Positions 1,096 through 19,318 of a stretch of 64,000 nt of DNA are shown piece after piece (position 1 is the stretch's first letter; each line of letters begins with the position of its first letter). The stretch covers positions 62,001 to 126,000 of the forward strand of contig JAIXWF010000011.1 of assembly GCA_027482185.1 (NCBI GenBank), written 5' to 3'. The notes under the pieces are model-generated. The model worked only from the letters and a program-made list of their open reading frames with translations. It did not search any database and was not told where the DNA came from. Source of the stretch: Opitutaceae bacterium. GTDB taxonomy: Bacteria > Verrucomicrobiota > Verrucomicrobiia > Opitutales > Opitutaceae. The position numbers were made by a program, and so were the translations under genes.

Positions 1096-1387
1096 GTCCC
1101 GAGGCTGGCTCCTGTCGCGGCCAGCCTGGGCTCCGTCTTCGCATCTGCCACAAGGTTTTCGTTCCCTCTGCGACCCAGTCTGGCGCTACCGCCAGCAATC
1201 CCGTTCGTTCCGGATTGCCCAGCGGGGCCTGCCTGGGGGAGCCAGGGACATGTACGGCATCGTCCGCTTCGAGCCGGTCCGCCGGCTCATTGACCAATCG
1301 GCCAAAAGATGACGTGAGTAATGTGCGATTTAGGTTCGTCGCCGCGAAGCAAAGCCTTGTTACTCGCCGTAGTTTTTGCGCCATCGT

Positions 1388-4300
1388 ATGACTGCCCCTC
1401 TTTCGTCATCCCAATCGCTCCTGCTTGCCTTGGTTCCCGTTGATGGCTCCGCCATCGGAAACACCTCGCTTCGCGAGCAGCTCGGCTGGGAGGAGGCCGC
1501 TTACGTTGCGGTCCGAGATGAACTCGTCGCCGCCGGTGTCTTGGAAAAGGGCAAGGGCCGGGGCGGTTCGGTGAAACGCGTTGTGGCCGCCGTGCCCAAG
1601 ACCGAACTCTTCGCCGCCGAGGAGATCGAGTCCGTTATCCCCGAGTTAGAACGAGCTCGCCGCGCCTCTGCGGAATCCGCCGCCGCCAAGAAAGAGAAAG
1701 CGCCGGCCGCTGCCGCGCCGTTCACCGAGCACCGTTTCGCGGAAGCGACCCGCAAGAACCTGCCTGCCGCCGGCGATGCCCTTGGCCATGTTGAGGAGGC
1801 GGGAAAGATCACGTACGCCTACGATCCGCACCGTCCGCCCGTCTTGCGGTTCAACGAGGGCATCGTCGGCCTGCGAGAGTTGCTCGACGAGTCCCGCCGC
1901 CGGCCGCTCACCGTGGAGGAGACGGAAAAACTCGCCGCGTTGCTGGAGGCCCCGCAGCCGTGGTTGGAGTGGACGGGTAAACGGGAAACCCCCGACTTCG
2001 CGGTCGAGCCTGTGGCTCTGCACATCCACGAACGCGTGTCCGCCCAAGCCATCTTGAAGGCAGTGCGGCGCGAAGACATTCAGCGCGATCTCTTTGCCGA
2101 GGGCGCGCAGTCAGCCAAGGAAGCCCGCGCCTATTACCAGCACGATGTCGCCTGGGCCAACCGCCTCATCACGGGCGACTCCCTGCAAGTCATGACGAGC
2201 CTCGCCCGCCGCGAGGGCCTCGCCGGTCAGGTGCAGATGATCTATTTTGATCCGCCTTACGGCATCAAATTCAGCAGCAACTGGCAAAACGAGGTCGGCA
2301 AACGCGACGTGAAGGACAAGGACGAAGACCTCACCCGCGAGCCCGAGATGATCCGCGCCTACCGCGATACCTGGACACTTGGCGTTCACTCCTACCTGGC
2401 GTATCTGAAGCAAAGGCTGATCGTCGCCCGCGAGTTATTGAAGGACTCCGGCTCAATCTTTGTTCAGATTTCAGACGAAAACCTGCATCGTGTGCGAGCG
2501 GTGATGGATGAGGTTCTGGGGGCTGAAAATTTTGTTTCTCAGATAACCTTCCGCAAGGGCATGGCCCTAAGTTCTGACGCAATTTCTGGTGTTTGTGATT
2601 ATCTCGTCTGGTATGCCAAAGACGCATCGAAACTGCTCGTACGAACACTGTTTTACGAAAAAGAAGAGGGCCTTGATTCGGGGTACGCCACAGTAGAGAC
2701 GGACAATGGCGCTCCATATCCAGTCACTTCAGCTGAACGCGGCCGAATTTTTGGAACTCAACCACTGCATGCAGCCGGAACAAACCTATCTTCAATGTTT
2801 GCCATCAATGTCTTTGGAAGGGACTATATGGCGCCAAGACAAGGCTGGAAAACGAATGAAGAAGGTATGGTTCGTCTTTCGAGGGCGGCTCGAATCGCTG
2901 CTACCGATTCAGTCCTACGGTACAAGATATATTTGGATGATTATCCGGTATCCAAGCTGAGCAATTTGTGGAGTGGAATCACAGGAGAACCCGACAAGCG
3001 ATACGTGGTACAGACGTCTACAATTGTTGTGCAGCGTTGCATGCTAATGACCACGGAACCAGGCGACCTCGTGCTGGACCCGACTTGTGGCAGTGGTACA
3101 ACGGCCTACGTCGCCGAGCAATGGGGCCGCCGTTGGATAACTATCGATAGCTCACGTGTCGCCGTGGCAATCGCGCGTCAACGGCTGCTCACGGCTTCCT
3201 ATAACACCTACAAGACCAAAGATCCAGAAGCGGGATTCGATCCTAGCGCCCCGCAAAATCCGGCCCACGGTTTTCACTACAAGACCGTCCCGCACATCAC
3301 GCTCAAGAGTATTGCGCAGAATAAGGGCCTCGATCCCATCTTCGCCAAACATGAGCCCATACTTGTCGCCCGTCTCGCCGAATTAAACGCCACGCTCGCC
3401 GCCATCGCGGCCCCGCAAGCAGCCGCCCTGTGCCAGAAACTTGTCGCGAAGCTCCTAGCGAGGCACGTAGCCGACGGCGCCAACGCAGTTACCGATGCCG
3501 ATTACCGCCGCTGCCTCCTCCCCGGTACCGACAAGGCACTCATCCAGCCCGGCAAGAAGATCACCGACAAGCAGGCCAAGGCTTATCAGGCCGCCATCCC
3601 GCCCACCGCCGCATGGCGTGAGTGGGAAGTACCTTTTGACGCTGATCCCGAGTGGCCCGCACCGCTCGCCGCCTCGCTCGATGCATACCGCACCGCGTGG
3701 CGAGCCAAGATGGACGAGGTCAACGCCGCCATCGCCGCCAACGCCGAACAAGAGGAGTTGGTCGACCAGCCCGAAGTTGTGCGCGGCGTCGCCCGCGTGG
3801 CCGGTCCCTTCACAGTAGAATCTATGCGCCCACCCGAGACATCCCTCAAGGGCGAGGCCGATCACGAAGACGCACCCGGCCCCATCGGCGACGAGCCGGG
3901 CGAGCTCGAATCGTTCGAGACGACCACCGCACCTGAGCGTGATGTCACCAACGCTGCGTCGCACATCGAGCGCATGTTGGAACTGCTCAAGCACGACGGC
4001 ATCACCTTCACCGGCAACAAGCACGTCAAGTTCACCCAGCTCGACGCCGTCGAGAGCAGCTTCCTGCACGCCGAGGGCGAGTTTGCGGCCGAGGACGCTA
4101 AGCCGCACCGCGTGGCCATCGTTGTCGGCCCGGAGTTTGGCAGCGTCACCAGCTACCAAGTGGACAATGCCCTGCGCGTCGCCCATCGCCGGGGTTATGA
4201 CGACGTCGTCTTCGCCGGTTTCTCCTTCGACGCCACCGCGCAGGAAACCATCCAGGCCTACAACGACGAACCCCGCGCCGAGGTGCGTCTGCACATGGCG

Positions 4301-4756
4301 CAAATCCGCCCCGATGTGGGCATGAAGGACCTACTCAAGAAGACCCAGAAGGTGGAGCAGATCTTTACCGTCTTTGGCCAACCACGTACCCGCGTGGAGA
4401 CCAAGGCCGGCGAGGTTGTCGTCCACATGGACGGTGTCGACCTCTACGATCCTGTGGCCAATGCCCTGCAAGCCACCAGCGCCGGCAAGGTCGCAGCGTG
4501 GTTCCTCGACACCGACTACGACGGCAAAGTCTTCTGCATCTGCCAGGCCTTTTTCCCCGACAAGACGGCGTGGGACAAACTCGCCCGCGCACTCAAGACC
4601 AGCGTCTCCGAAGGCGCGTTCGAGGCACTCAGCGGCACCACGAGCCTGCCCTTCAAGCCCGGCCCCCGGCAATGCGTGGCAGTGAAAGTCATCGATCCGC
4701 GCGGCAACGAAGTCATGCGCGTGCACCGGCTCGGCGATACCTACGAGACCCGCTAG
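1388..4756 (+). CDS. Type III-like (beta-class) site-specific DNA methyltransferase
   Basis: The 1122-residue protein should methylate an adenine or cytosine amino group in DNA. The catalytic motif DPPYG is at residues 288-292. The SAM-binding motif DPTCGSGT starts at residue 564. Motif IV before motif I is the beta-class order of type III Mod enzymes. Residues 1-65 look like a winged helix, which is unusual for simple Mod proteins. The segment between the motifs, expected to be the target recognition domain, is clearly poorer in GC than the rest. The C-terminal ~300 residues are typical of large Mod-like partners of type III-like restriction helicases. ATG 1388 was preferred to TTG 1376. The next gene follows after 11 bases. 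The matching helicase-nuclease lies 4 kb downstream. Confidence 0.9.
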   Translation: MTAPLSSSQSLLLALVPVDGSAIGNTSLREQLGWEEAAYVAVRDELVAAGVLEKGKGRGGSVKRVVAAVPKTELFAAEEIESVIPELERARRASAESAAAKKEKAPAAAAPFTEHRFAEATRKNLPAAGDALGHVEEAGKITYAYDPHRPPVLRFNEGIVGLRELLDESRRRPLTVEETEKLAALLEAPQPWLEWTGKRETPDFAVEPVALHIHERVSAQAILKAVRREDIQRDLFAEGAQSAKEARAYYQHDVAWANRLITGDSLQVMTSLARREGLAGQVQMIYFDPPYGIKFSSNWQNEVGKRDVKDKDEDLTREPEMIRAYRDTWTLGVHSYLAYLKQRLIVARELLKDSGSIFVQISDENLHRVRAVMDEVLGAENFVSQITFRKGMALSSDAISGVCDYLVWYAKDASKLLVRTLFYEKEEGLDSGYATVETDNGAPYPVTSAERGRIFGTQPLHAAGTNLSSMFAINVFGRDYMAPRQGWKTNEEGMVRLSRAARIAATDSVLRYKIYLDDYPVSKLSNLWSGITGEPDKRYVVQTSTIVVQRCMLMTTEPGDLVLDPTCGSGTTAYVAEQWGRRWITIDSSRVAVAIARQRLLTASYNTYKTKDPEAGFDPSAPQNPAHGFHYKTVPHITLKSIAQNKGLDPIFAKHEPILVARLAELNATLAAIAAPQAAALCQKLVAKLLARHVADGANAVTDADYRRCLLPGTDKALIQPGKKITDKQAKAYQAAIPPTAAWREWEVPFDADPEWPAPLAASLDAYRTAWRAKMDEVNAAIAANAEQEELVDQPEVVRGVARVAGPFTVESMRPPETSLKGEADHEDAPGPIGDEPGELESFETTTAPERDVTNAASHIERMLELLKHDGITFTGNKHVKFTQLDAVESSFLHAEGEFAAEDAKPHRVAIVVGPEFGSVTSYQVDNALRVAHRRGYDDVVFAGFSFDATAQETIQAYNDEPRAEVRLHMAQIRPDVGMKDLLKKTQKVEQIFTVFGQPRTRVETKAGEVVVHMDGVDLYDPVANALQATSAGKVAAWFLDTDYDGKVFCICQAFFPDKTAWDKLARALKTSVSEGAFEALSGTTSLPFKPGPRQCVAVKVIDPRGNEVMRVHRLGDTYETR

Positions 4757-4767: not shown

Positions 4768-5874
4768 ATGGCCCTCGCGAAGTTCTTCGAAGACGTCCGA
4801 GAAAGCTACCTTGAGGGGGTAGACGGCCGCATCAACGCGGTTTATGGTCGTGACCCGGAGCGGGAATGGAAGCTGACGGCCGCGACCGTCACCGAGGCAG
4901 TCGCCCTCCGCGGTCGTGACGGGATCCTATTCGACGACAACCTCGTCTTCAAAACGGGCCAACGGGTGATCTTTGAGATCGTCTGCGCTAGGGCGGATCT
5001 CGCCGTGGAGCTCAAATGGCAGACGGCGCAAAAAGGCGCCCTGACTACGCTGCCCAATGACGAGAATGCCGTCGTGCTCGTCTCGAAGCATGCCGTCTCC
5101 GGCGATCTTGTCGTTAGCTGCGGCAACTACGCCAAATCCTACCGGGTCTCCTTCATCGCAGGACACACACCCGAAAACCTGCCGGATTTCGCCGCTGAAC
5201 TCGCCAAGCTCACGGCCAATCCGCCCGCCTGGACCCAGACAACATTCGACCGCTTTCGCATCGGCATGGAATCGGTGCTGACCAACCACAAGTTGCCTGC
5301 CGATTTCTGCGACGGGATCCGGGAGTATTACCTCGGTCTCTTCCATGAACAGCGTCGGGAAGGTCGGTTTGTCGAAAGGCTAGACCGTGCCTATGTGCAA
5401 CTGGCGCCGTTTGTGCAATTCAGCCGCTTGGCGGCGCTCATCTGCGCCTACCATCTTTATCGAATCAATGCGTTCGAGGCACCCTTGGTGAAACAAATCC
5501 TCGGCCGGATTGGCCGGGTTGCCCGTTTCTTTTCCGGCGAGGTGGCAGCTATGGCTCCAGCGACCGGAGAGGCGCGCAAGTCCTCGCGGGAACTGCTGAT
5601 TGTTTCAGCCGTCGACGAAGCGATCATCGCGGCGGTAGAGCACCTGGATGAGGGAGACCTCGACCTCGCGGAGTCCTGCGTGGGAAACGCAGACTCGGCT
5701 CGGTGTGAAGTTGATACCCAGGCCTTGGAGAGAATCCACTTTTTGCGCCACCGGATCTGTTTGCGACGAGGTGACGCCCGCGGGACAGCGAAGTATGCGC
5801 TCCAATTGAGCAACTCGGGGTTGGCGAATTTTCGCGCGCTGGCCCAGTCGAAACCCGCGATGTCGGGGAAATGA
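4768..5874 (+). CDS. Unknown protein in the methylase-Hsp70 gene run
   Basis: I do not recognise this 368-residue protein. The N-terminal ~180 residues look like a mixed alpha/beta domain with alternating hydrophobic strands. The rest is predicted mainly helical (a Leu/Ala-rich stretch around residues 200-300), possibly a helical-repeat scaffold. No Walker, nuclease or methylase motif is visible. It begins 11 bases after the methylase stop, and its stop lies 4 bases before the next start, so it should be co-transcribed with both. The open frame extends further upstream inside the methylase gene, but ATG 4768 is the first start that avoids a long overlap. A role as an adaptor or target-recognition subunit is only a guess. 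Confidence 0.75.
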   Translation: MALAKFFEDVRESYLEGVDGRINAVYGRDPEREWKLTAATVTEAVALRGRDGILFDDNLVFKTGQRVIFEIVCARADLAVELKWQTAQKGALTTLPNDENAVVLVSKHAVSGDLVVSCGNYAKSYRVSFIAGHTPENLPDFAAELAKLTANPPAWTQTTFDRFRIGMESVLTNHKLPADFCDGIREYYLGLFHEQRREGRFVERLDRAYVQLAPFVQFSRLAALICAYHLYRINAFEAPLVKQILGRIGRVARFFSGEVAAMAPATGEARKSSRELLIVSAVDEAIIAAVEHLDEGDLDLAESCVGNADSARCEVDTQALERIHFLRHRICLRRGDARGTAKYALQLSNSGLANFRALAQSKPAMSGK

Positions 5875-5878
5875 TTTC

Positions 5879-6925
5879 ATGACTGAATTTAACCAGATTC
5901 CTACCTCCAAAGGACCCGCCGCAACTTCGGCACCGCTTCCTTTTTTCAAAGACAGCGGGGTCGCGCTGAAGGAGCTGCGAAAGTTTGAGCCGCCCTTCAC
6001 AGACGAGATGCGCGCCGACTTTTTGGAAAAGGTTGCCAAGAGCCCGATGGCAAAGCCCATCGCGTTTACCATTCTCGCTCTAGGCTGGGCCGGGAAAACG
6101 GACGCACGGTGGAACTTGATCCGGTCCGGCGTAAGGCAGCTGCTTTTGGGGGAGCGGGAGCACCCCGGCGGCAGGCATCTGGCAGACGCACGTGTGCGCC
6201 GGGCTTGGCTCGCCAGCGAGTTCAACACCGATCATCGCAGCGCCGCCGCCAAAGCCTACGTGGCAGACTGCGGCTATCTGCGCCCGCTCTACATCATCCT
6301 CAACGAGCCCGACAGCGAGGGCTGGCTGCATGCAGCGCTCGACGACTTCATGGTCGAGCTCGATGGAGCAATTGAAGTCGCGCAGGATGCGGGTCCCAAA
6401 AAAAAGCCCGCGGTGAACCTGACCGCGGCTCGGCGTTTGGCCTGGCAGATTTCTCGCCAGATCCCGACTAAACCAAATGGGCACAAATCGCTGCGCACGC
6501 ATCTGCACCTGCTCCAGGCCATCAACGCGCTGCACGTGGACCAAGGGACGAAACTCGAGTCTGCCCTTGAACAAGTCGAAACGGTAGATCGGTTGCTAAC
6601 GGAGGCCAAAGCCGAGACGGCGCGACTTCGGGCGGAAATTGAACAGACGGAGGCGAAGATTGGCGCCGAGCGTGCGCGTGCGGAAGGGATCGCAAGCGAA
6701 CTCCGTGCGTCACGGGATCAACAAGCACTGCAAAAAGGGATCGCCGACGCCAAGCTGAGCGACGAGCTGAATGCCCAACGTGCGGCGATCCGCGCCTACC
6801 TCCGGGAGCGAATCCAGAACGTCCGTCTCTACGCGGACCGCCCCGAACCGGCACGGGACAAGGTCGCGCGGCTTTGCGAAGAAATGGTCGCCTTCCTCGA
6901 CGATACAACCCGTGCGCCAAAATGA
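5879..6925 (+). CDS. Coiled-coil protein coupled to the Hsp70-like gene
   Basis: This 348-residue protein has a mostly helical N-terminal part and a long charged coiled coil from about residue 220 to 300. A short conserved-looking end contains LRERIQNVRLYADRP. Its stop codon overlaps the start of the Hsp70-like gene (ATGA), so the two are translationally coupled. By position and shape it could be the nucleotide-exchange or substrate-delivery partner of that ATPase, much as GrpE (also a long coiled coil) serves DnaK. This is inference: I see no GrpE signature. It has no membrane segment or signal peptide, so it should be cytoplasmic. Confidence 0.75.
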   Translation: MTEFNQIPTSKGPAATSAPLPFFKDSGVALKELRKFEPPFTDEMRADFLEKVAKSPMAKPIAFTILALGWAGKTDARWNLIRSGVRQLLLGEREHPGGRHLADARVRRAWLASEFNTDHRSAAAKAYVADCGYLRPLYIILNEPDSEGWLHAALDDFMVELDGAIEVAQDAGPKKKPAVNLTAARRLAWQISRQIPTKPNGHKSLRTHLHLLQAINALHVDQGTKLESALEQVETVDRLLTEAKAETARLRAEIEQTEAKIGAERARAEGIASELRASRDQQALQKGIADAKLSDELNAQRAAIRAYLRERIQNVRLYADRPEPARDKVARLCEEMVAFLDDTTRAPK

Positions 6926-8448
6926 AACCACTCGCTTTCGGCATCGATTTCGGAACCACCAATTCGCTCGTTTGCGCGTGGGGAAATGCCCTGCTCCGCG
7001 AGGAGCGCCCCGTGGCATTTTGGGACAACACGCCGAGCGGGAATCGCCCGCACCCTTCGATCGTATGGTATGGCCCGCACGTACATCCGAAGGTTGGCCT
7101 CGAGGCGCGTGCGAGCATCGGCAGCCATTCCACCAGCATGGGGCATGCGTTTGTCTCTTCGGTGAAGAGGAAGCTCGGGCGCAATGCGGAGGTTGAGCTT
7201 GTGGGGGGCCAAAGGAAACCGGCCTGGGAAGTGGCCAGCGAGATCTTCCGCCACCTAAGGGAACACGCCAAAGGGCACGCGATGATGAAGCAGTCGAAGC
7301 AGGAGTTGGTAGAATGCGTGGTGACCGTGCCCGTCGATTTCAACGGGCAGCAGCGGAGCGAGATTCGCCGTGCAATGCAGCGCGCAGGTCTGAAGCTGAG
7401 AAACTTCCTCCACGAGCCCTTTGCCGCGATGGTGAGCCATTTCTACGATCCGGTGAACAAGCTGCAGGGAATTGCGGGCAAACGCACCATTGTGTTCGAT
7501 TGGGGTGGTGGAACGCTGGATGTCTGCATCACCGAAGTCACCCAGGACGGCTCTCATGTTTTCGAGATCGCCCATGACGGCATTGCTGATCGCGCCGGCG
7601 ACGAATTCGACCTTCGCGTCATGCGGGCTCTCAAGCAAAAGTTTATCGCCCGCAGCAATCTGAAGATTGACGACCTCCCCCTCAGGGGGAACGCCTCGGA
7701 CCGATTTCGGTTGGCAGCGGAAAACTGCAAGATTGCGCTCAGCACGACGCAGGAGGAACGGATCGAGGTTCCAAGCCTTTTCGAGGCCTTTGGGAGGCAT
7801 CATGATCTCGAGGAGACGATGAGTCGGCAGGAGTTTGAGGAAATTGCTCGCGTCGAGATCGATGCCGCCGAGGCATGTGTTCAAAGATGCCTGAACAAGG
7901 CAGGACTCTCTCCCGGCCTCATCGACTACGTGCTGCTGGTGGGCGGGACCTCCAACATTCCTGCCGTGCGCTCGATGATGGAGCGAATGTTTGGGGCGCG
8001 GGTCGCCGTGGCCCACGAGCCGGATGCGGCGATTGCACGGGGCGCGGCGATTGTCGCTGCCGAGGAGTGGATACCCTACAACGTCAAAGACGTCGGAGTT
8101 CTGCTCTCAGACGGCACCATGTTCTCGGTCCTACCCGGAGGCCGCCCCTTGCTTGCGAGCGAAAGCCAGAAGTTTTCTTTCTACTGCATCGATCCGCGCG
8201 ATGGCGTCGCGCGGATTCAGATTGTGGAAAAAAAACGCAGTGGCGACCGCGCACTTTCCAGCCTCGCGGATTGCATGACGGTCAAGACCAATCCCGGAAT
8301 CCGGGAGGTGCGTTCACTGGATCGAATCACCACCCAGTTCATCGTTACGGAAGATGCCACGCTGCGCGTCGTGGCCCAATCCGCTTCTACGGGAAGCAAG
8401 AGTGAGATTGATATTCACGATCTGTGCTTCGGGCTGAAGCTACGCTGA
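6922..8448 (+). CDS. Hsp70-like (actin-fold) ATPase in a restriction gene cluster
   Basis: The 508-residue protein has the Hsp70/actin-fold ATP-binding elements: phosphate-1 motif GIDFGTTNS near residues 6-14, VTVPVDF near 135, phosphate-2 motif DWGGGTLDV near 193-201, and the adenosine motif LLVGGTSNIP near 335. A beta-rich segment of about 115 residues follows; it would be a small substrate-binding-like domain. The helical lid and acidic tail of DnaK are absent. It is far more diverged than housekeeping DnaK and sits among restriction genes, so a dedicated role (loading or remodelling a defence complex, or sensing phage protein) is likely but unproven. It overlaps the upstream coiled-coil gene by four bases, and the next gene starts 4 bases after its stop. 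Confidence 0.9.
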   Translation: MKPLAFGIDFGTTNSLVCAWGNALLREERPVAFWDNTPSGNRPHPSIVWYGPHVHPKVGLEARASIGSHSTSMGHAFVSSVKRKLGRNAEVELVGGQRKPAWEVASEIFRHLREHAKGHAMMKQSKQELVECVVTVPVDFNGQQRSEIRRAMQRAGLKLRNFLHEPFAAMVSHFYDPVNKLQGIAGKRTIVFDWGGGTLDVCITEVTQDGSHVFEIAHDGIADRAGDEFDLRVMRALKQKFIARSNLKIDDLPLRGNASDRFRLAAENCKIALSTTQEERIEVPSLFEAFGRHHDLEETMSRQEFEEIARVEIDAAEACVQRCLNKAGLSPGLIDYVLLVGGTSNIPAVRSMMERMFGARVAVAHEPDAAIARGAAIVAAEEWIPYNVKDVGVLLSDGTMFSVLPGGRPLLASESQKFSFYCIDPRDGVARIQIVEKKRSGDRALSSLADCMTVKTNPGIREVRSLDRITTQFIVTEDATLRVVAQSASTGSKSEIDIHDLCFGLKLR

Positions 8449-8452: not shown

Positions 8453-8722
8453 ATGAATAACCAAATGAACAGCAATCTCGTGGTTGCAGCGAATGTCTGG
8501 ATCGATGCGGAGAATCCGAACGGCACAACCGTTTGGCAGGCTGCCGAACAAATTCCGGGCGATCTGATGATCGATTTCATTGCGAAAGAGTTCCCCCATA
8601 TAAATCCACGCGATAAGCAGATCTTGGCTGGAAAGATGACGTCGGTGCAGATTCGGGAGTATCTGGAACGGCGATTCTTCCTTCATCACGGCGAGAAGGG
8701 TCCTGCTTTTGAAGACAGTTGA
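8453..8722 (+). CDS. Small unknown protein downstream of the Hsp70-like gene
   Basis: This 89-residue acidic protein has no motif I recognise. It begins four bases after the Hsp70-like stop, which argues for a real coupled gene. An N-terminal beta-like segment (LVVAANVWIDAENPNG) is followed by helices. It could be a co-chaperone, a regulator or an antitoxin-like inhibitor of the following nuclease-helicase; nothing in the sequence decides between these. A 47-base gap separates it from the restriction helicase. Confidence 0.65.
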   Translation: MNNQMNSNLVVAANVWIDAENPNGTTVWQAAEQIPGDLMIDFIAKEFPHINPRDKQILAGKMTSVQIREYLERRFFLHHGEKGPAFEDS

Positions 8723-8769: not shown

Positions 8770-11700
8770 ATGGCACGGTCTTCTAGCAACACCGCACTCG
8801 CGCCCGAGTTGCCGATCCAGGCGCCGGTCGAAGAGCCGATCATCAATAGCCCCTATGTCGTGCCCAAAGCGCACTGGGCTTACGACAAATCCGGCAAGGC
8901 CAACAAGATGTCCGGTCGACGGGATGCGCGATACTTCTGGACGACCCAGCGGGTGCTTACTGGCCAAACGGAGCTGGAGAGCATCGGAGGCGACTACGGC
9001 AGCGAACCGCTACCGCTTGTAAATGCACTACGCGCAGATGTCGCCAAGTGGCGCGACAGTGGTTACGAAAACGCAAGCCAAGTCACCAAGAAGCTACTGG
9101 CTCACTGGACGCGAACCGACCGCAAGCGCCGGTTCTTCTTCTGCCAGATGGAGGCCGTTGAAACGGTCATTTACATCAATGAGATCCTGGCCGCTGGCCG
9201 GCGGACGCGCTTCAACCAAGCCGTGACACCGTTGGACTACGCTGCCATGATCAAGGGTGAGAAACCTCCGCTTGCCGCCGGCATGAGCGACGAGTTTTTC
9301 CCGCGCCTATGCGACCAACCATGGGATCGGACGCAAAGAGCACTCGTCCGCTACGGCTGCAAAATGGCCACGGGTTCCGGCAAAACGGTCGTCATGGCGA
9401 TGCTGGTCGCATGGAGTTTCTGCAATCGCGGAGCGGTGCCGGGAGACACCCGCTTTCCGTCAGCCGTTGTGGTGGCGTGCCCAAATCTCACGGTGCGCGA
9501 GCGCCTTCAGGTGCTGCGCACTGACGGCGACCCCGAGAAGAGCTACTACGCTATCTTCGACATTGTGCCTCCCACGCTACGCAACTTGCTTTCGAGCGGG
9601 CGCGTGCTGGTAACGAATTGGCATGCCTTCGCTCCGGAGAGCGAACACGCAGAGGGCGGTGCAACATATGCCGTGGTGCAGAAAGGCGAAGAAGGGGCGG
9701 ACGCATTCGCTCGTAGAGTGCTGCGGGATCTATACGGCCGAGGCGAAATCCTCGTGATGAACGATGAGGCGCACCACGCCTACCGGCCGGCCCCGCCGGA
9801 AGAGGCCGTGAAGAGCAAGAAGAAGAAGGGCGACGAAGCTGGCTTTGGTGAAGTGAGCGACGACGACCAGAAGGAAGCCACGGTCTGGGTGGAAGGACTA
9901 GATAAGCTCAACTCCTCCGTCGGGGTACGTTGCTGCATCGACTTGTCCGCAACCCCGTTTTACCTCGGCGGCAGCGGCTACATCGAGGGCTCGCCGTTTC
10001 CGTGGTTGGTGAGCGACTTCGGGCTGGTGGACGCCATTGAGAGCGGTATCACCAAAATCCCACGCCTTCCGGTAGCGGATACCAGCGGCCGGCCCGACCC
10101 CAAATTCTTCCGCCTATGGGACGAAATCAAACGCCAGCTCAAGGCCCAGGGAGACGCCAACTTTGATCGCGGCAAGCCTAAGCCCGAGGCAACCTGGCGG
10201 CAGGCGCAGCCGGCGTTCGCGATGTTGGCGGCGCAGTGGCAGGAACGTTTCGGACAACATCGGGAGGCCAAGGGCGGCCAAACCTTTGTGCCGCCCGTGA
10301 TTATCGTCGTCTGCGACAATACGGATATGGCGCAGGTATTCTTTGAGAAGATCTCCGGCGAAACCATCGAGGAAATCACCGAGGAAGACGATGACGGCAC
10401 CGTCACTACCCGAAAGGAACGACGATACAATCCCGACGGCGTGCCTTTCCCCGACTTGGCCAACACCGCCGGACGTACGGTGACACTGCGCATCGACAGC
10501 AAGCTACTTGCCGAGGCCGAGATCGGCAATGCCACCGGCTCAAAACTCAAGGAAGCCGAGCGACTACGCGAACTCATCGCCAACGTTGGCAAGCCCGGTA
10601 CGCCCGGCGAACATATCCGCTGCGTCGTTTCGGTGCAAATGCTCACTGAGGGCTGGGATGCCAACAACGTCACCCAGATCCTCGGCTTGCGTGCATTCGG
10701 CAGTCAGCTGCTCTGCGAGCAAGTCGTCGGGCGTGGTCTGCGGCGCATCAGCTACGACGCCTATATCGACGAACGGACAGGCGAAGAACGCCTTCGCCCG
10801 GAATACGTGGACGTTTACGGCATTCCGTTCTCGGTTATTCCCTACAAGGGCCGCGAGGGCAAAACGCCCGAGCCTGACGACAAACCTACCAACCTCGTGC
10901 AGGCCTTGGTCGAGCGCGGCATGATGGAGATACGGTTCCCCAACGTGGACGGTTACGTCATGGAGTTGCGCCAGCACAAGGTGCGATGCGATATCGCCAA
11001 GGTGGAGCCGCTCACCATTAAGCCCACCGATTTCCCTACCCAGGTTTACGTGCAGCCCCAAGTTGGTATCAAAGAGGCCGGGCAATGCGGTTCGGGAGAT
11101 TTTGCGCTGGGCAAACACGATCGCGAGGAGTTCTACGAACTGCATCACCTTCAGACCATTCTCTTCGAGATCACGCGCCTGATCGTCCACCGCCTCACTG
11201 AGTCACAGCCCGGTAAAGAGGCGAAGCTCAAGCACCACGCCCGCCACCAGCTCTTCCCGCAAGTTCTCGCGATTGTGGAAGATTATGCCGCACGACGAAT
11301 CCAGTGGAACGGATGTGCCAAGCAGGAACTCGCGCTCGAGGTCTACATGCGTAAGGTCGTCGAGCAGCTGAGCGACGCCATCGAGCCCGACCACGGCGCT
11401 GGTGAGCCACCGCTTTTGCCGGTGGTAAATCGTTTCCGTCCCCATGGCAGCACAGCGGAGGTGCGTTTCACAACCACGCGGCCTTGTCACGCAACCTTCA
11501 AGAGCCACATCGACCAAGTCGTTCTCGATACCGATACCTGGGAACGCTCGGCGGCATTTCAACTAGAGGCGAGCGAAGCAGTCTCATTTTTCGCCCGCAA
11601 CGATCACCTCGGACTCGAGATCCCCTACGAATTCTACGGAGGTGCGCACAAGTTTCTGCCTGATTTTGTCGTTCGTCTGCGAAACGGCACCAACGTGCTG

Positions 11701-11877
11701 CTGGAGATAAAAGGCCTTCACGGAGAGAAGGAGGAAGCGAAGTTCCAAGCGGCCAAGCGCTGGGTATCCGCCGTTAACAACTGGGGGCGCATGGGGCGCT
11801 GGGCGTTCCACGTCTGCAGGAGTCCCGACGCGCTTCAGACCGAAGTTGAGTATATCAACAAGCAACCATTCGTGTAA
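8770..11877 (+). CDS. Type III-like restriction helicase with C-terminal PD-(D/E)XK nuclease
   Basis: The 1035-residue protein joins a superfamily 2 DEAD/DEAH motor to a nuclease. Walker A ATGSGKT is at residues 200-206. The DEAH box is at 332-335. Helicase motif III-like DLSATPF and a later QVVGRGLRR (motif VI) complete the motor. Near the C-terminus LPDF (Asp965) and LEIKG (Glu979, Lys981) form a PD-(D/E)XK nuclease core, as in type III Res subunits. It should translocate on and cut DNA, in partnership with the methyltransferase 4 kb upstream. Features such as EPIINSPY near the N-terminus remind me of the BPTD_3080-type restriction endonuclease family, but that is from memory. The UvrD-like gene follows after 14 bases. 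Confidence 0.93.
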   Translation: MARSSSNTALAPELPIQAPVEEPIINSPYVVPKAHWAYDKSGKANKMSGRRDARYFWTTQRVLTGQTELESIGGDYGSEPLPLVNALRADVAKWRDSGYENASQVTKKLLAHWTRTDRKRRFFFCQMEAVETVIYINEILAAGRRTRFNQAVTPLDYAAMIKGEKPPLAAGMSDEFFPRLCDQPWDRTQRALVRYGCKMATGSGKTVVMAMLVAWSFCNRGAVPGDTRFPSAVVVACPNLTVRERLQVLRTDGDPEKSYYAIFDIVPPTLRNLLSSGRVLVTNWHAFAPESEHAEGGATYAVVQKGEEGADAFARRVLRDLYGRGEILVMNDEAHHAYRPAPPEEAVKSKKKKGDEAGFGEVSDDDQKEATVWVEGLDKLNSSVGVRCCIDLSATPFYLGGSGYIEGSPFPWLVSDFGLVDAIESGITKIPRLPVADTSGRPDPKFFRLWDEIKRQLKAQGDANFDRGKPKPEATWRQAQPAFAMLAAQWQERFGQHREAKGGQTFVPPVIIVVCDNTDMAQVFFEKISGETIEEITEEDDDGTVTTRKERRYNPDGVPFPDLANTAGRTVTLRIDSKLLAEAEIGNATGSKLKEAERLRELIANVGKPGTPGEHIRCVVSVQMLTEGWDANNVTQILGLRAFGSQLLCEQVVGRGLRRISYDAYIDERTGEERLRPEYVDVYGIPFSVIPYKGREGKTPEPDDKPTNLVQALVERGMMEIRFPNVDGYVMELRQHKVRCDIAKVEPLTIKPTDFPTQVYVQPQVGIKEAGQCGSGDFALGKHDREEFYELHHLQTILFEITRLIVHRLTESQPGKEAKLKHHARHQLFPQVLAIVEDYAARRIQWNGCAKQELALEVYMRKVVEQLSDAIEPDHGAGEPPLLPVVNRFRPHGSTAEVRFTTTRPCHATFKSHIDQVVLDTDTWERSAAFQLEASEAVSFFARNDHLGLEIPYEFYGGAHKFLPDFVVRLRNGTNVLLEIKGLHGEKEEAKFQAAKRWVSAVNNWGRMGRWAFHVCRSPDALQTEVEYINKQPFV

Positions 11878-11891: not shown

Positions 11892-14732
11892 ATGCCCCTC
11901 GTCGTTGTTCACCGAGAAAACAAGTTCAATGATGTCTTGAGGAACATGCGGCGCAGTGGAGGCAGCCGCGCCAACGCCTATCGGAAAATAGGCGAAATCC
12001 GGCAGAGCTTGGCACTTGGCGAGCGAAATGTCTGCCAAACGACCGACCACGGTGAGACTCGAATCAAGAACTGCGTCAAATACGATATCGGCAACGGACA
12101 CCGCTTGGTTACGGTAGATTTCGGAGAAGTTGTAATGCTATGTTTTGCCGGCTCCCATGACGAGGTAGACCATTGGCTCGACTCCAATCGAAACACGACC
12201 TTCACCTTCGACAAAGAATCGAAAAAGATCGGCGTTGTAGTTGAACGCGAAGTTGCAACCACGTCTTACCTGCCCGCCTCCACAACACCGCCTGAGGACC
12301 CGCGGCCGTATTTGCTGCAGATTGACGGAATTGACTGGGAACAACTCGTACCTCCCAGGAGCATTCGCAGACGATTGCTCGAGCTTGGCGTCGATTCGGA
12401 TGAAGAGAAAATTCTCGAGGTGCTCGGCGATGTAAAGGAGGAGGTCAACGCAGAGATCGCAGACCTATCGCTACAGCTCTTGACAGCTCTTCGCGACGGT
12501 CGGTGCGACATCGCTGAGCGACATCGCGACTTGTTTCTTGGACGAAGGCAGCGGGCGACGGAGCAAACCCCGCTTACACCTGAAATTGTCACCGCCGCAT
12601 CGAACTCCGATACATTGGTTGTATTGAACGATTTGTCGGAAGCAGAGTTTGATGCGTTGTGGGACCCCGCCCGATTCCAGGAATGGATGCTTTATCTGCA
12701 CCCAGGACAGAAACGCATTGTCGACGAGGACTTTGACAAGCCGTGTGTGTTCACCGGGGTTTCAGGCAGCGGAAAAACCTGCGTTCTGATTCACCGCGCG
12801 GTCCGACTGGCGAAGCTTTCTCCGGGTGCTCCGATCCTTATCCTCACTTTGAATCGGTCGCTGGCACATTTGATCGAGAAGCAAGTAGAACGCCTGGGAA
12901 ACGGCGCCAAACACCAGATCAGCGTCATGGCGTTTTACGATTATCTCGAAGCCGTGCTGAAGTTTTACGGACTCGACGACTTTCTCACTTCGGTCAGCGC
13001 CCTTCTTGAGCTTAAGGCGGAGGTGGCGGAGTTTATTCGTACGCACGTTTTGACTGAGCTAACTTCCCTCTTTGCCGCGCGCGATGACTATGAAATTGAA
13101 ACGCTGTGGTCGCAATTCTGCGACGATCCAAATTCACAGGCAACCAAAGATGCATTCTCGCGCCTAACCCACTACCTCAAGGAGCAGGACCCAACCATCG
13201 ACGCAGAACGCTACCTGAAAGACGAACTGACACTTGTCCGCAGCGCGTTTCGGCTGGCTGCTGAATACGAAGGCTACCGCGGATATGATCGTGGCGGTCG
13301 TTGCATTCAGTTTCAGGACAAGCGCCGCGAGGATATCCTGAGACTACTGCGCACCTGGGAAAGATTCCAACTTCGGCACGGTAAACTCGACAGCATGGGG
13401 CTGACTCAAGCGGCGACTGTCGCACTTGACGATCACGGAGGCAGCCTGCCGGAGCATTTGCGGTTTCGCAGCGTGCTAGTGGACGAATTCCAGGACTTTT
13501 CGACCTTGGACCTGGAGCTTATCTGCAAGATCCCGATTAATGCAGAAAATGGGCTGTTTCTCACCGGGGACACGGCACAGAAGATATACACCAAGGATTT
13601 CGATCTGCCTCGCGCGAACCTAGCCCCGGCTAACCGAGTAAATCGAAGCATTCACAAGAATTATCGCAATAGCCGGCAGATCTTGGAGGCGGCGCATCAT
13701 CTCATCGAAGCGTATGCGAACGAGTCGACGGCCAGGCACGAGGGAGTGACCGTCCTCAAACCTGAATATGCGCAGCGCGATGGGGCAATGCCCTTCGTTT
13801 GCCCTACGAATGATCAGCTACAAGCCGCATGGTCGCTTGCGGGTGAGTGGCTGGCTTCCGGTTATCCCGCGTTCAGTGTTTGCATCGCAACCGCGAATCC
13901 GGATGCGGTATCGGTACGGCAGATTCGCGACTCGGCTCCGCCTGACATCGCGACATCTCGCCTTACGGGCGACTATTTGCAGCGGACTGATATCGTGGTC
14001 GTAAGCGATATCTACAATATCAAGGGATTTGAGTTTAGCTTGATTGTTATCGTCGGTCTTGCGGAAGGGGAATTTCCCCCGCGAGGTGTGCCGAGTGGGG
14101 AGGCGTGGAGGGAGGCCCTTCGACTCTACGTTGCGATGACGCGTGGACGTGATGAGGTATGTCTTGTTTACGAAAACAGGCCTTCGCCCTTTCTCTTGGC
14201 GATGGGCGCGGCGGTTGCCGAGCGGCCATTGAACTTTGCGGAGCCGATTGCGACCCGACTGAATCCCGACCTCCCGGCGCCGACGCAGCAAAGCTCTGAG
14301 GATGTAAGATGTAACGAGACGCTAGGTCAGGCTGAGAAAGTTGCGGAGCCTTTCCCGTCGCCACTGCCAACGATTCCTCCGCCTGAGATCATATCGCATC
14401 CGGACGCAATTCCGCCGATTCCCTACCCAAGGCCGGTTTCGATTTCGATTGTTCCTGCCGACAATTTACCTCCAGCGGAGGGAATTGGGTCGGAGATCAC
14501 ATCAGCAAGCCCGGAGCCCGCTGAAGTTGTGCTGAACGGAGTTAGTCTGCTCGTGGTCAAGGGCGAACCCAGTGTTCGGTCTGTGGCGAAGGCACTTGGA
14601 AGAAGTCTTACCCAGATCCACAATGACTTTATGGCGCTCGGGGTATTTACTGCACCCGATGCACCTGTCCGTCGGGCCTTCGCGAATCGAGTGATGGAGA
14701 AGTACGGATGCAGCCCCATATTTCACCGTTAA
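11892..14732 (+). CDS. UvrD-family helicase with RelE-like N-terminus and IF2N-like C-terminus
   Basis: The 946-residue protein is a superfamily 1 helicase. Walker A GVSGSGKT is at residues 289-296. Walker B DEFQD is at 531-535. FLTGDTAQ (motif III) and LYVAMTRGRDEV (motif VI) follow. Residues ~30-100 resemble a RelE/ParE-like fold (KYDIGNGHRLV then CFAGSHDEVDHWL). The last ~60 residues resemble the IF-2 N-terminal small helical domain (VRSVAKALGRSLTQIHNDF). A proline-rich linker of ~100 residues precedes this end. It should unwind or translocate on DNA, and the extra domains may bind nucleic acid or a ribosome-like surface. GC content is about 52% in sampled lines, lower than the neighbouring restriction helicase, which suggests a separate origin. 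Confidence 0.88.
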   Translation: MPLVVVHRENKFNDVLRNMRRSGGSRANAYRKIGEIRQSLALGERNVCQTTDHGETRIKNCVKYDIGNGHRLVTVDFGEVVMLCFAGSHDEVDHWLDSNRNTTFTFDKESKKIGVVVEREVATTSYLPASTTPPEDPRPYLLQIDGIDWEQLVPPRSIRRRLLELGVDSDEEKILEVLGDVKEEVNAEIADLSLQLLTALRDGRCDIAERHRDLFLGRRQRATEQTPLTPEIVTAASNSDTLVVLNDLSEAEFDALWDPARFQEWMLYLHPGQKRIVDEDFDKPCVFTGVSGSGKTCVLIHRAVRLAKLSPGAPILILTLNRSLAHLIEKQVERLGNGAKHQISVMAFYDYLEAVLKFYGLDDFLTSVSALLELKAEVAEFIRTHVLTELTSLFAARDDYEIETLWSQFCDDPNSQATKDAFSRLTHYLKEQDPTIDAERYLKDELTLVRSAFRLAAEYEGYRGYDRGGRCIQFQDKRREDILRLLRTWERFQLRHGKLDSMGLTQAATVALDDHGGSLPEHLRFRSVLVDEFQDFSTLDLELICKIPINAENGLFLTGDTAQKIYTKDFDLPRANLAPANRVNRSIHKNYRNSRQILEAAHHLIEAYANESTARHEGVTVLKPEYAQRDGAMPFVCPTNDQLQAAWSLAGEWLASGYPAFSVCIATANPDAVSVRQIRDSAPPDIATSRLTGDYLQRTDIVVVSDIYNIKGFEFSLIVIVGLAEGEFPPRGVPSGEAWREALRLYVAMTRGRDEVCLVYENRPSPFLLAMGAAVAERPLNFAEPIATRLNPDLPAPTQQSSEDVRCNETLGQAEKVAEPFPSPLPTIPPPEIISHPDAIPPIPYPRPVSISIVPADNLPPAEGIGSEITSASPEPAEVVLNGVSLLVVKGEPSVRSVAKALGRSLTQIHNDFMALGVFTAPDAPVRRAFANRVMEKYGCSPIFHR

Positions 14733-15755: not shown

Positions 15756-18008
15756 ATGGCCCGAAAAACAAAGACCCGCGACCTCTCTCCAACCCTTGAG
15801 CCGGCCGCGCAGTGGATTCGACGGTGCCTAATTGAGGACGGGTCTATTCTGAGCCCCCGAGGGCTGTGGACCGCGGACCTACTCCGGGAGCTCGAAACGC
15901 GGTTCGTGAAGGCCCCCGATTCGTCGGATCGGAAGTTTCTCGCGAAATTGAAAGACCAGCTCGCCAACGCCAGCCCGGAGGCGCGGTGCCTTATGGCCGA
16001 AGTCCTTTGGATTCTCTCCCTTTTCCCTTCCGCGACGAACATGAAACCCGAGACCAAGCGCGCCCGCGTGCTCGATTTCTGGGCGATGCTACCGTCGCCG
16101 TCATCTCAACCAGCCCTTTCCGATGCTGCCTTGGTGGGCATCGGCAGTGTAGGCCAAGGCTACCTGCAGCACCAGCCGCTTGAGGCGGAGAGCATCATCA
16201 CCATGGCGCTCAATCTAAAGGGGCGAAGCGTGGAGGAAAGAAAGACCATCTTCGCCACTCGGACAAACCTCGAGGAGTGGTTAAACTCACAACCGCGGAT
16301 TGCGAACCGGCAGTTCCCGAACGTGCTGCGCTACTTCGCCTTCCCCGACGAGGTGGAGCGGATCTCTTCGGTCGCCAACAAACGCGCGATTCTGGAGGGC
16401 TACGGTGTTAAGGTCGGAGCCGACTGGCCGCACCAGCGATTGGATGACGAAATTCTGACGCTGAGGACGAAAATGGAAGCGTTACATCCCGGCCAAAATC
16501 TTGATTTTTATGAGGCCCCACTCGTTGATCGCTGGAAAGAGGACCGCGAGAATTCGGACAGGCCAGTGATTTCCACTCCGGTGCCCGTTCCGGTTGGACC
16601 GAACAAGGCCATGGTAGCGGCGCCGCATTTGAACGTGCGGGATCAGCTGGCAGTGAACCGTATTTATTTCGGTCCGCCAGGCACTGGAAAAACCCACAAA
16701 CTGCGCTCGCTCTTCGCCGCTTTTGAGGACGAACCCAGGTCAGCCAGCCGGCAAGAATGGCTACGCTCGATAGTTGCCGACCATGGCTGGCGCGCGGTTA
16801 TCGCGGTATCCCTTAGCACATCTAAAGAAGGAATGAAGGTACCTGATCTTCTGCGCCACGAGTTAATGCTCGCGAAGATAGACCTACGAGGCCGCAGCGC
16901 GAACCTTAGCCAGACTGCATGGGGTTACCTCTGCGAGCACACGCCCCCGGATTCCAAAACGGTTCAAAACAAAATCCGGCGAGCACCTTTCATCTTCGAC
17001 AAGAGTGTTGAGAGTCGATGGGAACTATTGGCCGGCTGGGAAGAAGCCGACAGCGAAGCCGCCGCACTCTCAGAGGTGTATCTCAAAGGCCCTGCATCCG
17101 GCGCTGCCTCAATTAGGCGCTACCGCACGGTCACGTTTCACCCGTCTTACTGCTATGAAGATTTCGTGCGCGGCATCCGCCCGATTGCTACTGAGGATGC
17201 CGGCCGCACCGAGTTCCGGATGGTGGACGGTGTTTTCAAACAGATCTGCGACGAAGCCCGGGCCAACCCCGCCAAGCGCTACGCCCTCTTCATCGACGAG
17301 ATCAACCGCGGCAACATCGCCAAGATCTTCGGCGAGCTCATCACCCTGATCGAACCCGACAAACGCCTCGTCGTCACCGAGGACGGCAGCGTTGTCGGCG
17401 GCATGACGGTCCAGCTTCCCGGCAGCAACACGGGCGAAGCAGTCGAGCCGCCCTTCGGCGTCCCCGCCAACCTCGACCTCTACGGCACCATGAATACGGC
17501 GGACCGTTCCATTGCCCTGCTGGATATCGCCCTCCGCCGCCGCTTCGAATTCGTCGAGCTGCCGCCGCGCTACGATGCCGACATCTTCACCTCTGACGTG
17601 GCCGACGTGGACCGCGGCGCGTTGCTCCGCCGCATCAACGACCGCCTCGAATACCTCCTGGATCGCGACCACCGCATCGGGCACGCCTACCTGATGAAGG
17701 CGAACAGCCTTGCCGAGCTTCGCGGCGCTTTTGCCAACCAGATCATCCCCTTGTTGCAGGAGTACTTTTTCGACGACCTCGGCAAAGTCGCCCTCACACT
17801 CTCAGGTCCCGACGGCACGAGCCCGTTCGTGCGCAAAGAGGAACTCGGCTACGCCACTTTGTTCACCGGCCGCGCCGTTGGTTCCCCAAGCCCCCGCTTC
17901 CGCTACCTCGTCACCGACCCCGCGCAATGGTCAGCCGAAGCCTTTCAATCGATCTACGCCTCCACCGGGCCAGCCACTGACCTCGAAGCTGAAGACGCCG
18001 CCGGCTGA
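15756..18008 (+). CDS. mcrB: McrB-like AAA+ GTPase subunit of a modification-dependent nuclease
   Basis: The 750-residue protein has the McrB AAA+ core: Walker A GPPGTGKT at 306-313, FHPSYCYEDFVRGIRP around 464-479, Walker B FIDEINRGN with Asp514-Glu515, and the GTPase signature MNTADRS at 579-585. In the McrBC family this subunit hydrolyses GTP and translocates DNA after recognising modified bases. Residues 1-300 are the variable recognition part and match nothing I know. The gene has a composition break near 17,150: the upstream half is near 50-55% GC, the downstream half near 65-70%. McrC follows after 11 bases. Confidence 0.92.
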   Translation: MARKTKTRDLSPTLEPAAQWIRRCLIEDGSILSPRGLWTADLLRELETRFVKAPDSSDRKFLAKLKDQLANASPEARCLMAEVLWILSLFPSATNMKPETKRARVLDFWAMLPSPSSQPALSDAALVGIGSVGQGYLQHQPLEAESIITMALNLKGRSVEERKTIFATRTNLEEWLNSQPRIANRQFPNVLRYFAFPDEVERISSVANKRAILEGYGVKVGADWPHQRLDDEILTLRTKMEALHPGQNLDFYEAPLVDRWKEDRENSDRPVISTPVPVPVGPNKAMVAAPHLNVRDQLAVNRIYFGPPGTGKTHKLRSLFAAFEDEPRSASRQEWLRSIVADHGWRAVIAVSLSTSKEGMKVPDLLRHELMLAKIDLRGRSANLSQTAWGYLCEHTPPDSKTVQNKIRRAPFIFDKSVESRWELLAGWEEADSEAAALSEVYLKGPASGAASIRRYRTVTFHPSYCYEDFVRGIRPIATEDAGRTEFRMVDGVFKQICDEARANPAKRYALFIDEINRGNIAKIFGELITLIEPDKRLVVTEDGSVVGGMTVQLPGSNTGEAVEPPFGVPANLDLYGTMNTADRSIALLDIALRRRFEFVELPPRYDADIFTSDVADVDRGALLRRINDRLEYLLDRDHRIGHAYLMKANSLAELRGAFANQIIPLLQEYFFDDLGKVALTLSGPDGTSPFVRKEELGYATLFTGRAVGSPSPRFRYLVTDPAQWSAEAFQSIYASTGPATDLEAEDAAG

Positions 18009-18019: not shown

Positions 18020-19318
18020 ATGCCTCACGCCGCGCTTACCGCGTTCGAGCATCAGCCGCTGCCGATTGTCCCCGGCGGCGATGCGCGCTCGCTGTCCGAG
18101 GCCGAGGCGGAGCAACTCCTCTGGGTGGCCGAAAGCCTGCCGGGCTTTTGCGCCCGCGGCTACCAAAGCGTGAAGCTCAGCGAGCACTGCGGCCTGCTCA
18201 ATCTCGGCGGTCGGGTGCTCGAGATCCTTCCCAAAGTCGGTGAGCGTTCCGACGCAGCAGCCGGCCGAGGCGTGCTCTTGCGGCTGCTCCGCTACGCCTT
18301 GGACTTTCCGGTCCACCGCCAAAGTGAGGCCGGACAAGGAGCGCGACCCGCGCCGCTGCTGGAGGTATTCATCTCCGCCTTCTTCGAGGAGGTTCTCGGC
18401 CTCCTCAGAAGCGGCCTGCTTCGCCGCTACGTGGAGCACGAGGACGATCTCCTCGCCGTGCGCGGCGGCATCCGGCTCCAGCGGCAATTCACCACGCTCG
18501 CCAATCGCACCGACCTCGTTGCCTGCCGCTTCGACGAACTCACGCCCGACAACCGGTGGAATCGCCTGCTCAAGGCGGGGCTCCATGCCGTGCGGCCATG
18601 GATTCGGAGCCTCGCGCTCCAGCGCACCTGGTTCGAACTCTCCGCCGCCTTGGAGGAGGTCAGCCTGATTTCGCATCCCCGCATGCTACTCGAAGGGCTC
18701 CGCTACGACCGCCAAGCCGTGCGTTACCGCCCGGCCATCCTCTGGGTGGAGCGAATCCTCAACCTTCTCTCTCCGGACTTTCGCGCCGGCAGCCGGCCGG
18801 CGCCGGGTCTGCTCTTTGACATGAACCTGCTCTTTGAGCGCGCCGTGGAGCAACGCATGGCGACCTGGGCGGACGCGCGCGGCTGGACGCTGTCAAACCA
18901 GGATGACTCACGCTTCCTCGCGGAAAGACCGGGCACGCCTCCTCGCCCGGCCTATCGGCTGCGTCCGGATCTTGTATTTCGGGAGCGCGGGCGCGTCGTC
19001 GCCATCGCAGATTCGAAATGGAAGCGACCTGAAGTGCGTCACGGTTTCGTTTTCCCCGCCCAGCCCGACGTCTACCAACTCCACGCCTACGCTTCGGTCT
19101 TCGGCTGCGACCAACTCGCCCTGATCTATCCTTGGCAAGACCACCTCGCCCAGGCCCTCGAAACCGTCTTCAAACTTCCTACCACCGGCGCCACCGCACC
19201 AAGACTTTCGGTGATGGCCATCGATATCGGCTACGACTTGCTCCCGTTAAAGCTCACCTCAAGCGGTGGCCTTTGGCCCAATCCATCGCCCTCGCTTGTG
19301 CCACCCCTCTTGCAGTAG
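18020..19318 (+). CDS. mcrC: McrC-like PD-(D/E)XK nuclease subunit
   Basis: This 432-residue protein is the expected partner of the upstream McrB-like motor. The N-terminal half resembles the McrC domain that contacts the AAA+ ring. The C-terminal nuclease has RPD (Asp317) followed by ADSKWK (Asp331, Lys333), the intact PD-D-x-K catalytic set of this family. It should cut DNA near modified sites once the McrB ring is assembled. GC content matches the 3' half of mcrB, so the two segments probably travelled together. No gene follows on this strand before the tRNA. Confidence 0.92.
   Translation: MPHAALTAFEHQPLPIVPGGDARSLSEAEAEQLLWVAESLPGFCARGYQSVKLSEHCGLLNLGGRVLEILPKVGERSDAAAGRGVLLRLLRYALDFPVHRQSEAGQGARPAPLLEVFISAFFEEVLGLLRSGLLRRYVEHEDDLLAVRGGIRLQRQFTTLANRTDLVACRFDELTPDNRWNRLLKAGLHAVRPWIRSLALQRTWFELSAALEEVSLISHPRMLLEGLRYDRQAVRYRPAILWVERILNLLSPDFRAGSRPAPGLLFDMNLLFERAVEQRMATWADARGWTLSNQDDSRFLAERPGTPPRPAYRLRPDLVFRERGRVVAIADSKWKRPEVRHGFVFPAQPDVYQLHAYASVFGCDQLALIYPWQDHLAQALETVFKLPTTGATAPRLSVMAIDIGYDLLPLKLTSSGGLWPNPSPSLVPPLLQ

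Follow-up and report, generated by a model that had tools for sequence, protein, structure and literature searches.

What does an Hsp70-like ATPase do inside a restriction operon? The question is raised by a stretch of 64,000 nucleotides (nt) from an Opitutaceae bacterium (GenBank assembly GCA_027482185.1, contig JAIXWF010000011.1, positions 62,001 to 126,000), referred to below as the window, in which a gene for a coiled-coil protein (CC) and a gene for an Hsp70-like protein lie between the methyltransferase gene (Mod) and the restriction endonuclease gene (Res) of a type III-like restriction-modification (RM) operon. An earlier note on this DNA had taken the two genes for a private chaperone pair of the DnaK-GrpE kind, in which CC would be the exchange or targeting factor of the ATPase. 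We found that the pair is part of a unit of three genes, B, CC and Hsp70, which recurs in the same order in genomes of at least seven phyla, and that a role of this trio in defence is likely.

Conservation of the three-gene unit

The first clue was a plasmid locus (L039) in which a coiled-coil gene stood directly upstream of an Hsp70 gene. A motif-based scan then detected two viral-type contigs and 287 relatives in genome contigs; the 80 best of the 287 were retained. The set analyzed here comprised 83 loci, namely the window, L039, the viral-type contig L074 and the 80; L075 was excluded as a near copy of L076. The gene order in the 83 loci was B, CC, Hsp70, and the rows of the Hsp70 tree described below cover by themselves seven named phyla. 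In BLAST clusters of the neighbors, made before any profile was available, CC occupied position −1 in 77 of the 83 loci and B was present in 74. When profiles were used, CC was found directly upstream of Hsp70 in 82 loci, and B was likewise found in 82, although the profiles of both genes had been trained on these loci and their detections depend on that training. The one CC that the profiles missed was that of the window, and the one locus without B was a cut contig of 3.2 kb (L152). The end of B lay 986-2,006 nt before the start of Hsp70 in 82 loci, and the stop of CC lay −25 to +25 nt from that start in the 81 loci measured, −4 being the commonest offset (24 loci); in these counts Hsp70 was taken to begin at the start codon closest upstream of its first ATP motif. 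The overlap of the CC stop with the Hsp70 start that had been claimed for the window is real, being the sequence ATGA at 6922-6925 by the coordinates of the open reading frames (ORFs). Thus the linkage behind the idea of a private pair stood; the view of it as two genes did not, as gene B is a third member.

With B as the query, all 20 whole genomes gave exactly one B each, always next to the cassette Hsp70; three of these loci had contributed rows to the query. The same query found two viral contigs, both with CC and Hsp70 after B; one of the two, L176, was the already known L075. Pairwise distances among the B, CC and Hsp70 proteins were correlated with r of 0.93-0.94 in 69 loci, and none of 999 shuffles gave a value as high. 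For 19 genomes r was 0.92-0.93 within the trio versus 0.43-0.47 against the genome's own DnaK, indicating that the three genes move as a group whose tie to the chromosome is loose. We concluded from these results that the existence of the B/CC/Hsp70 cassette as a unit is close to certain, and that the linkage of Hsp70 with CC, widened to include B, is supported as more than chance.

Searches of several other collections gave little. The CC protein found nothing in plasmids, the Hsp70 protein or a longer fragment found nothing in viral contigs, one B protein found nothing in 50,697 phage records, and the trio DNA of Buttiauxella found nothing in 5,426 E. coli genomes by a search that reaches about 65-70% identity; only two plasmid records were above strict limits, both with the same Hsp70. 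Among 387 genomes sampled from the phylum of the window, there was no other convincing B (four matches of 19-22 bits extended over about 40 residues in the zinc-finger region), no recognizable CC elsewhere (one coiled-coil match had an expectation value (E) of 1.6e-4, and the query would miss divergent CCs) and no other cassette-type Hsp70 (best other match, 139.7 bits). Apparent fusions of B and CC in Nocardia (L122, L154) were rejected as upstream-extended open frames in GC-rich DNA, B and CC being separate by frame-wise search, and the long Hsp70 of L131 was likewise an upstream extension of the open frame in GC-rich DNA.

Sequence features of the Hsp70-like ATPase

The Hsp70-like protein of the window matched PF00012 with 178 bits (cut-off 20.6). 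The best stretch reached profile position 497 of 599, showing that the nucleotide-binding domain (NBD) and the beta substrate-binding part are present and that the lid is absent; the best solved DnaK chain aligned over residues 5-496. The protein of 508 residues ends after the beta domain, with no alpha-helical lid, acidic tail or Cys tail, so the loss of the lid and the acidic tail had been read correctly. For comparison of residues we aligned 78 cassette Hsp70s, including that of the window, with two DnaKs; five of the 83 loci were left out because the protein was cut below 480 residues or no start was found, and residues are numbered as in E. coli DnaK, taken as Shewanella DnaK plus one. 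The residues K70, P143, R151, E171, D194, T199 and D201, which we take to be the catalytic positions in E. coli DnaK, were invariant in all 78 proteins, and the DFGTTN and GGGT loops were also kept in all of them; the earlier claim of intact ATP-binding motifs was therefore borne out at every position checked, both in the window and in the family.

The same 78 proteins all differed from DnaK in having H in place of N170, K in place of D393 and W directly after D194 (W195), and the segment facing DnaK residues 75-110 (subdomain IB) was 24-25 residues shorter in every one. The VLLLD linker was altered as well, to LxL[AS]K in 73 of the 78 and differently again in the window. In DnaK, N170, D393 and the linker serve in J-protein action (docking), and in the cassette Hsp70s both of these docking residues are replaced without exception. 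A C-terminal Cys motif was present in 56 of the 78 by a strict pattern and in 64 by a looser one, and the proteins of the window and of L155 stop before it.

The only family matches of the cassette Hsp70 were to general Hsp70 models; the NCBIfam models for DnaK and HscA were missed, with 164.8 of 822.55 bits for TIGR02350 and 164.7 of 708.55 bits for TIGR01991. In a tree of 30 Hsp70s, 15 cassette proteins including that of the window fell on one side of a 100/100 branch and 15 others on the opposite side; the window branch was long (1.55) and its exact place in the tree is unsure. The tree, together with the shared W195, H170 and K393, indicates that the window Hsp70 is a real member of the cassette family. 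All 20 genomes checked also hold a strong DnaK-type match besides the cassette Hsp70; in the genome of the window, a contig other than that of the window holds the strongest match to DnaK.

The partner proteins B and CC

The B profile, built without the window, matched window B with E 6.6e-11, a score by which we consider it a real member of the family. Most B relatives have an N-terminal C2H2-type zinc finger, whose columns C, C, H and H were at least 90% conserved over 43 rows of the B alignment; this region is gapped in window B. The window trio thus seems to be a divergent version, in which both metal sites, the zinc finger of B and the Cys tail of Hsp70, have apparently been lost. The model of window B had a mean predicted local distance difference test (pLDDT) score of 70.9, the helical half (about 135-360) being mostly confident and the N-terminal part poor. 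Foldseek found nothing for it in the PDB at E up to 0.001; VIA listed mostly TPR proteins, with a top Z of 10.5 and a root-mean-square deviation (rmsd) of 2.0 over 87 residues, and a match to Hop TPR2A with Z 10.0 and rmsd 3.9 over 117 residues. We call the C-terminal half of B TPR-like as a description of the modeled fold and not of a function, as Z values of repeats can reflect common packing.

The CC fold described here is that of L127, a relative whose model (mean pLDDT 91, 42 rows) has a helical head (41-202), one helix of 112 residues (205-316) and a short helix (322-340), with no strand. In L127, 25 residues follow the 112-residue helix, and in window CC about 48 residues follow the coiled coil, as judged by eye; the junction after the coiled coil of window CC is similar to the C-terminal segment that is conserved in the family. 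One profile search did not report window CC and did report two non-CC proteins (E 0.003 and 0.013). We assigned window CC to the family by its position and its overlap with Hsp70, the sequence similarity not being significant. LmuB was rejected as a PADLOC name for CC, the matches (E 0.00026 and 0.0021) lying mainly on the coiled coil. The PADLOC profile scan of the trio gave no system name, and scans of the window proteins and their relatives placed B and CC in no PADLOC, Pfam or NCBIfam family.

GrpE consists of a four-helix bundle and a beta domain after a long helix. The GrpE family profile had no match to window CC (E up to 0.1) or to three relatives (E up to 0.01). With the L127 model as the query, Foldseek found nothing in the PDB at E up to 0.001, and VIA gave middling Z values (6.9 at best) that may merely reflect common helix packing; neither list held a clear GrpE match, which excludes nothing. 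Frames resembling housekeeping dnaJ and grpE genes were seen by eye elsewhere in the window, on the minus strand at 43867-45051 and 45076-45720.

The interrupted Mod-Res operon of the window

The trio lies in a defence island on the plus strand that occupies the first 19 kb of the window (Table 1). Mod is directly upstream of B, and Res is the downstream half of the operon that the trio interrupts; the spacing is 11 nt from Mod to B and 4 nt from B to CC. The small ORF between Hsp70 and Res had no family above cut-off in the PADLOC, Pfam and NCBIfam profile scans.

Table 1. Features of the defence island in the window
Feature	Position	Strand	Evidence or placement
Mod, type III-like N6/N4 DNA methyltransferase	1376..4756 (start TTG 1376 or ATG 1388)	+	PADLOC MTase_III E 7.6e-164; PF01555
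Gene B, 368 aa, third cassette member	4768..5874	+	B-family profile E 6.6e-11
Coiled-coil protein CC, 348 aa, ATG start	5879..6925	+	ORF; position in trio
Hsp70-like ATPase, 508 aa, ATG 6922	6922..8448	+	PF00012 178 bits; residue comparison; tree
Small ORF, 89 aa, between Hsp70 and Res	8453..8722	+	ORF
Res, BPTD_3080-family restriction endonuclease	8770..11877	+	NF046055 930.5 bits, cut-off 800
UvrD-type helicase, GajB-like matches	11892-14732		after Res
McrB-like gene	15756-18008		after UvrD-type helicase
Likely McrC partner	18020-19318		after McrB-like gene

Mod and Res of the window belong to the type III-like RM operons of the BPTD_3080 family, and we compared them with 22 sister Mod-Res loci (18 genomes and four plasmid records), measuring gaps between open frames. 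In all 22, Mod and Res were side by side on one strand; in seven they abutted or overlapped, and in the other 15 they were 502 to 2,075 nt apart. Sister gaps of at most about 2.1 kb are too short to hold the trio, which takes up 3.7 kb between Mod and Res in the window. The closest relative (L195; Mod 55% and Res 56% identical) had the same order and no insert. As the Mod-Res operon occurs without the trio, the trio looks like cargo. Of the 25 genomes above the NF046055 cut-off, only that of the window has B or a cassette-type Hsp70. The space between Mod and Res in systems of this type resembles a variable cargo slot (L040, L043, L179-L194); in Thermus (L040), for example, it holds a DUF3800 gene.

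Four genes separate Hsp70 from the McrBC pair of the window, whose start lies 7.3 kb downstream of the Hsp70 gene. At the other end of the island, positions 31-1095 encode the C-terminal part of a protein resembling PADLOC HEC-07 (E 2.8e-22, profile positions 208-548 of 553). This part contains a coiled coil and ends in an NsnC-like segment, and the gene may begin outside the window.

Genes next to the cassette

We took the four nearest genes of at least 200 residues at each of 20 loci and scanned them with PADLOC at E up to 1e-10. The 80 nearest neighbors of the cassette matched 364 PADLOC families, versus 38 for 80 neighbors of DnaK in the same 20 genomes; the DnaK-neighbor families listed came mostly from one member matching PD-T4-6 models, and in six of the 20 control loci the DnaK gene was placed by a second procedure. 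The loci were also labeled with 21 reference proteins; as these came from the loci themselves and from the window, they are not a control. At least one reference protein was present in 43 of the 83 loci. The labels by locus were bacteriophage exclusion (BREX) in 15, GmrSD-like in ten, dynamin-phospholipase D (PLD) in eight, SNF2-type helicase or DUF1156 methylase in seven, type I RM in seven, McrBC in five, Mod/Res in four (the window counting for both McrBC and Mod/Res), Mrr in three, UvrD in two and Schlafen in two. Several of these neighbors are very close: PglX ends 2-36 nt before B in nine of the 83 loci, PglZ is directly after Hsp70 in five, HsdS abuts B with a gap of 0 nt in two, and in L125 a type III restriction gene (PADLOC REase_III, 1,082 bits) ends 27 nt before B.

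Two other kinds of neighbor were seen. The dynamin-PLD gene, present near the cassette in eight loci (e.g., L088:4226-7147), encodes a dynamin-type GTPase fused to a PLD-like domain and is directly upstream of B in six of the eight. A coiled-coil protein of 450 residues that belongs to no family is encoded directly after the cassette Hsp70 in ten loci (e.g., L039:16772-18112 and L113:11327-12676) and is a possible fourth member.

A possible mechanism and its alternatives

We propose, tentatively and with rather less than even confidence, that the three genes B, CC and Hsp70 form a single mobile cassette, which joins defence operons that target DNA and would act there as an adaptor-fed ATP switch. 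A sensor or switch module driven by ATP and serving DNA-targeting defences is the function that we infer to be most likely. B, with its TPR-like repeats and in most copies a zinc finger, and CC, with its head on a long rod, would together form a dedicated adaptor that presents Hsp70 with a target derived from phage or altered by infection; Hsp70, by binding and hydrolyzing ATP, would then be the switch that licenses or releases the adjacent restriction or BREX machinery. The trio would work independently of the housekeeping DnaJ and GrpE in their usual mode. A rod with a head, a repeat-containing adaptor and an Hsp70 that lacks the lid and keeps its ATP site would fit such a conformational switch. 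PADLOC, Pfam and NCBIfam scans recognized no nuclease, toxin or other effector domain in B, CC or Hsp70, and the effector should therefore be the neighboring system or the host machinery. A bolder version, in which the trio would define a new and widespread type of immunity built around a dedicated Hsp70 ATPase and its partners of neither the GrpE nor the J kind, detecting infection and acting either alone or as a plug-in switch of BREX and restriction systems, seems to us possible but doubtful.

Several results weigh against the proposal of a switch added to defence operons. No reference protein was found in the available DNA of 40 of the 83 loci; the PADLOC counts of 364 and 38 are of families, not of proteins; the similarity of window CC to the CC family is weak (profile E 0.1, hhalign P 4e-4); and on the viral-type contigs L074 (1-11956) and L177 (1-9233) the trio occurs without a recognized partner, an integrase-like gene being near it on L074, so that it may require no neighbor. 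The trio without a partner on these two contigs is also what would be expected of a self-contained antiphage system, acting for example through host factors and using the cargo slots of RM and BREX operons only as a place to reside, as are the many different neighbors of the trio and the other cargo that occupies the same slot in sister Mod-Res loci. We consider this explanation a serious one and yet on balance unlikely, since the trio has no recognized effector domain of its own and its ends come within a few bases of PglX or PglZ in several loci. That close coupling to genes for very large proteins, and the beta substrate-binding domain of the Hsp70, would suit a chaperone dedicated to assembly, one that folds or takes apart large methylases, helicases and nucleases with no sensing of phage. 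Such a chaperone is improbable, however, because the same RM family does without the trio (one of the 25 genomes above the NF046055 cut-off has B), and because the trio is found with unrelated systems and also with no recognized partner.

Two further explanations concern the individual proteins. An Hsp70-like module that binds nucleic acid in the style of CnuD, steering its neighbors to phage RNA or DNA with help from the zinc finger of B, has in its favor the zinc finger of most B relatives, the Cys tail of 56 of the 78 Hsp70s and the proposal published for CnuD (PMC11090510, in the passages available). We think it highly improbable: in the same passages RNA binding by CnuD is proposed partly from degenerate ATP motifs, whereas the ATP-site residues of the cassette proteins are invariant, and in the window B lacks the zinc finger and Hsp70 lacks the Cys tail. 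Least credible of all is the DnaK-GrpE analogy of the earlier note, in which CC would be a nucleotide exchange factor of the GrpE type. A coiled coil does adjoin the Hsp70, and a conserved C-terminal segment follows it; but CC has no GrpE family match, the model of its relative is all-helical and lacks the beta domain, and the third gene accompanies the pair in 82 of the 83 loci. What survives of that note is a dedicated unit tied to DNA-restriction operons, and what is not supported is an exchange factor of the GrpE kind.

If the proposal of an adaptor-fed switch is true, it adds the Hsp70 ATPase, among the most studied of biological machines, to the parts recruited by BREX and RM loci, and it would show how a chaperone senses infection or holds a restriction enzyme in check. 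B and CC, which had no PADLOC, Pfam or NCBIfam family, gain a first context. The trio is compact and is present in named strains within BREX and type I operons, which makes it directly testable. These results hint at a chaperone-driven layer of bacterial immunity.

Relation to known systems

The earlier note had known of no detailed role for Hsp70 in a restriction system, a statement that is out of date. According to the available passages of the two papers concerned, type IV systems of the CoCoNuT kind include units of an Hsp70 NBD and substrate-binding domain (PMC11090510), and HSP70 occurs with GrpE in the GAP1-N2 conflict systems, where chaperones have been proposed as thresholds (PMC7159879). 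In the open papers, these CoCoNuT and GAP1-N2 passages included, we found no description of B, of CC or of the order B-CC-Hsp70, and the main text of a 2026 survey of BREX (PMC12839542), as far as it was available, has no mention of HSP, chaperone, ASKHA or C2H2.

With DnaK and HscA the cassette Hsp70 shares the NBD, the beta substrate-binding domain and the ATP-site residues; it differs from them in lacking the lid, in scoring far below the cut-offs of their models, in the replacement of N170 and D393, in its changed linker and in its shortened subdomain IB. The CnuD of type III CoCoNuTs and the Hsp70s fused to McrB or McrC resemble the trio in having an Hsp70 NBD with a substrate-binding part, a restriction-linked locus and coiled coils, and CoCoNuTs, like the trio, are also reported beside BREX and type I RM systems (PMC11090510, passages available). 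As described there, CnuD goes together with McrB/McrC and HEAT repeats, and its ATP motifs are degenerate. By comparison with that description, the trio differs: we saw no fusion to McrB or McrC, the ATP-site residues do not vary, and Hsp70 has B and CC as its partners. The linkage to McrB/McrC that marks CnuD is not a feature of the trio, whose McrBC labels are confined to five of the 83 loci, the window included. The GAP1-N2 GTPase systems (HSP70, GrpE, DnaJ/TPR), as the available text of PMC7159879 presents them, share with the trio an Hsp70 in a predicted conflict system and TPR-containing partners, and differ from it in that the trio has no gene for a GTPase, GrpE or DnaJ. Finally, accessory genes are known embedded in BREX operons, and the trio is placed in the same manner, directly after PglX in nine loci and before PglZ in five.

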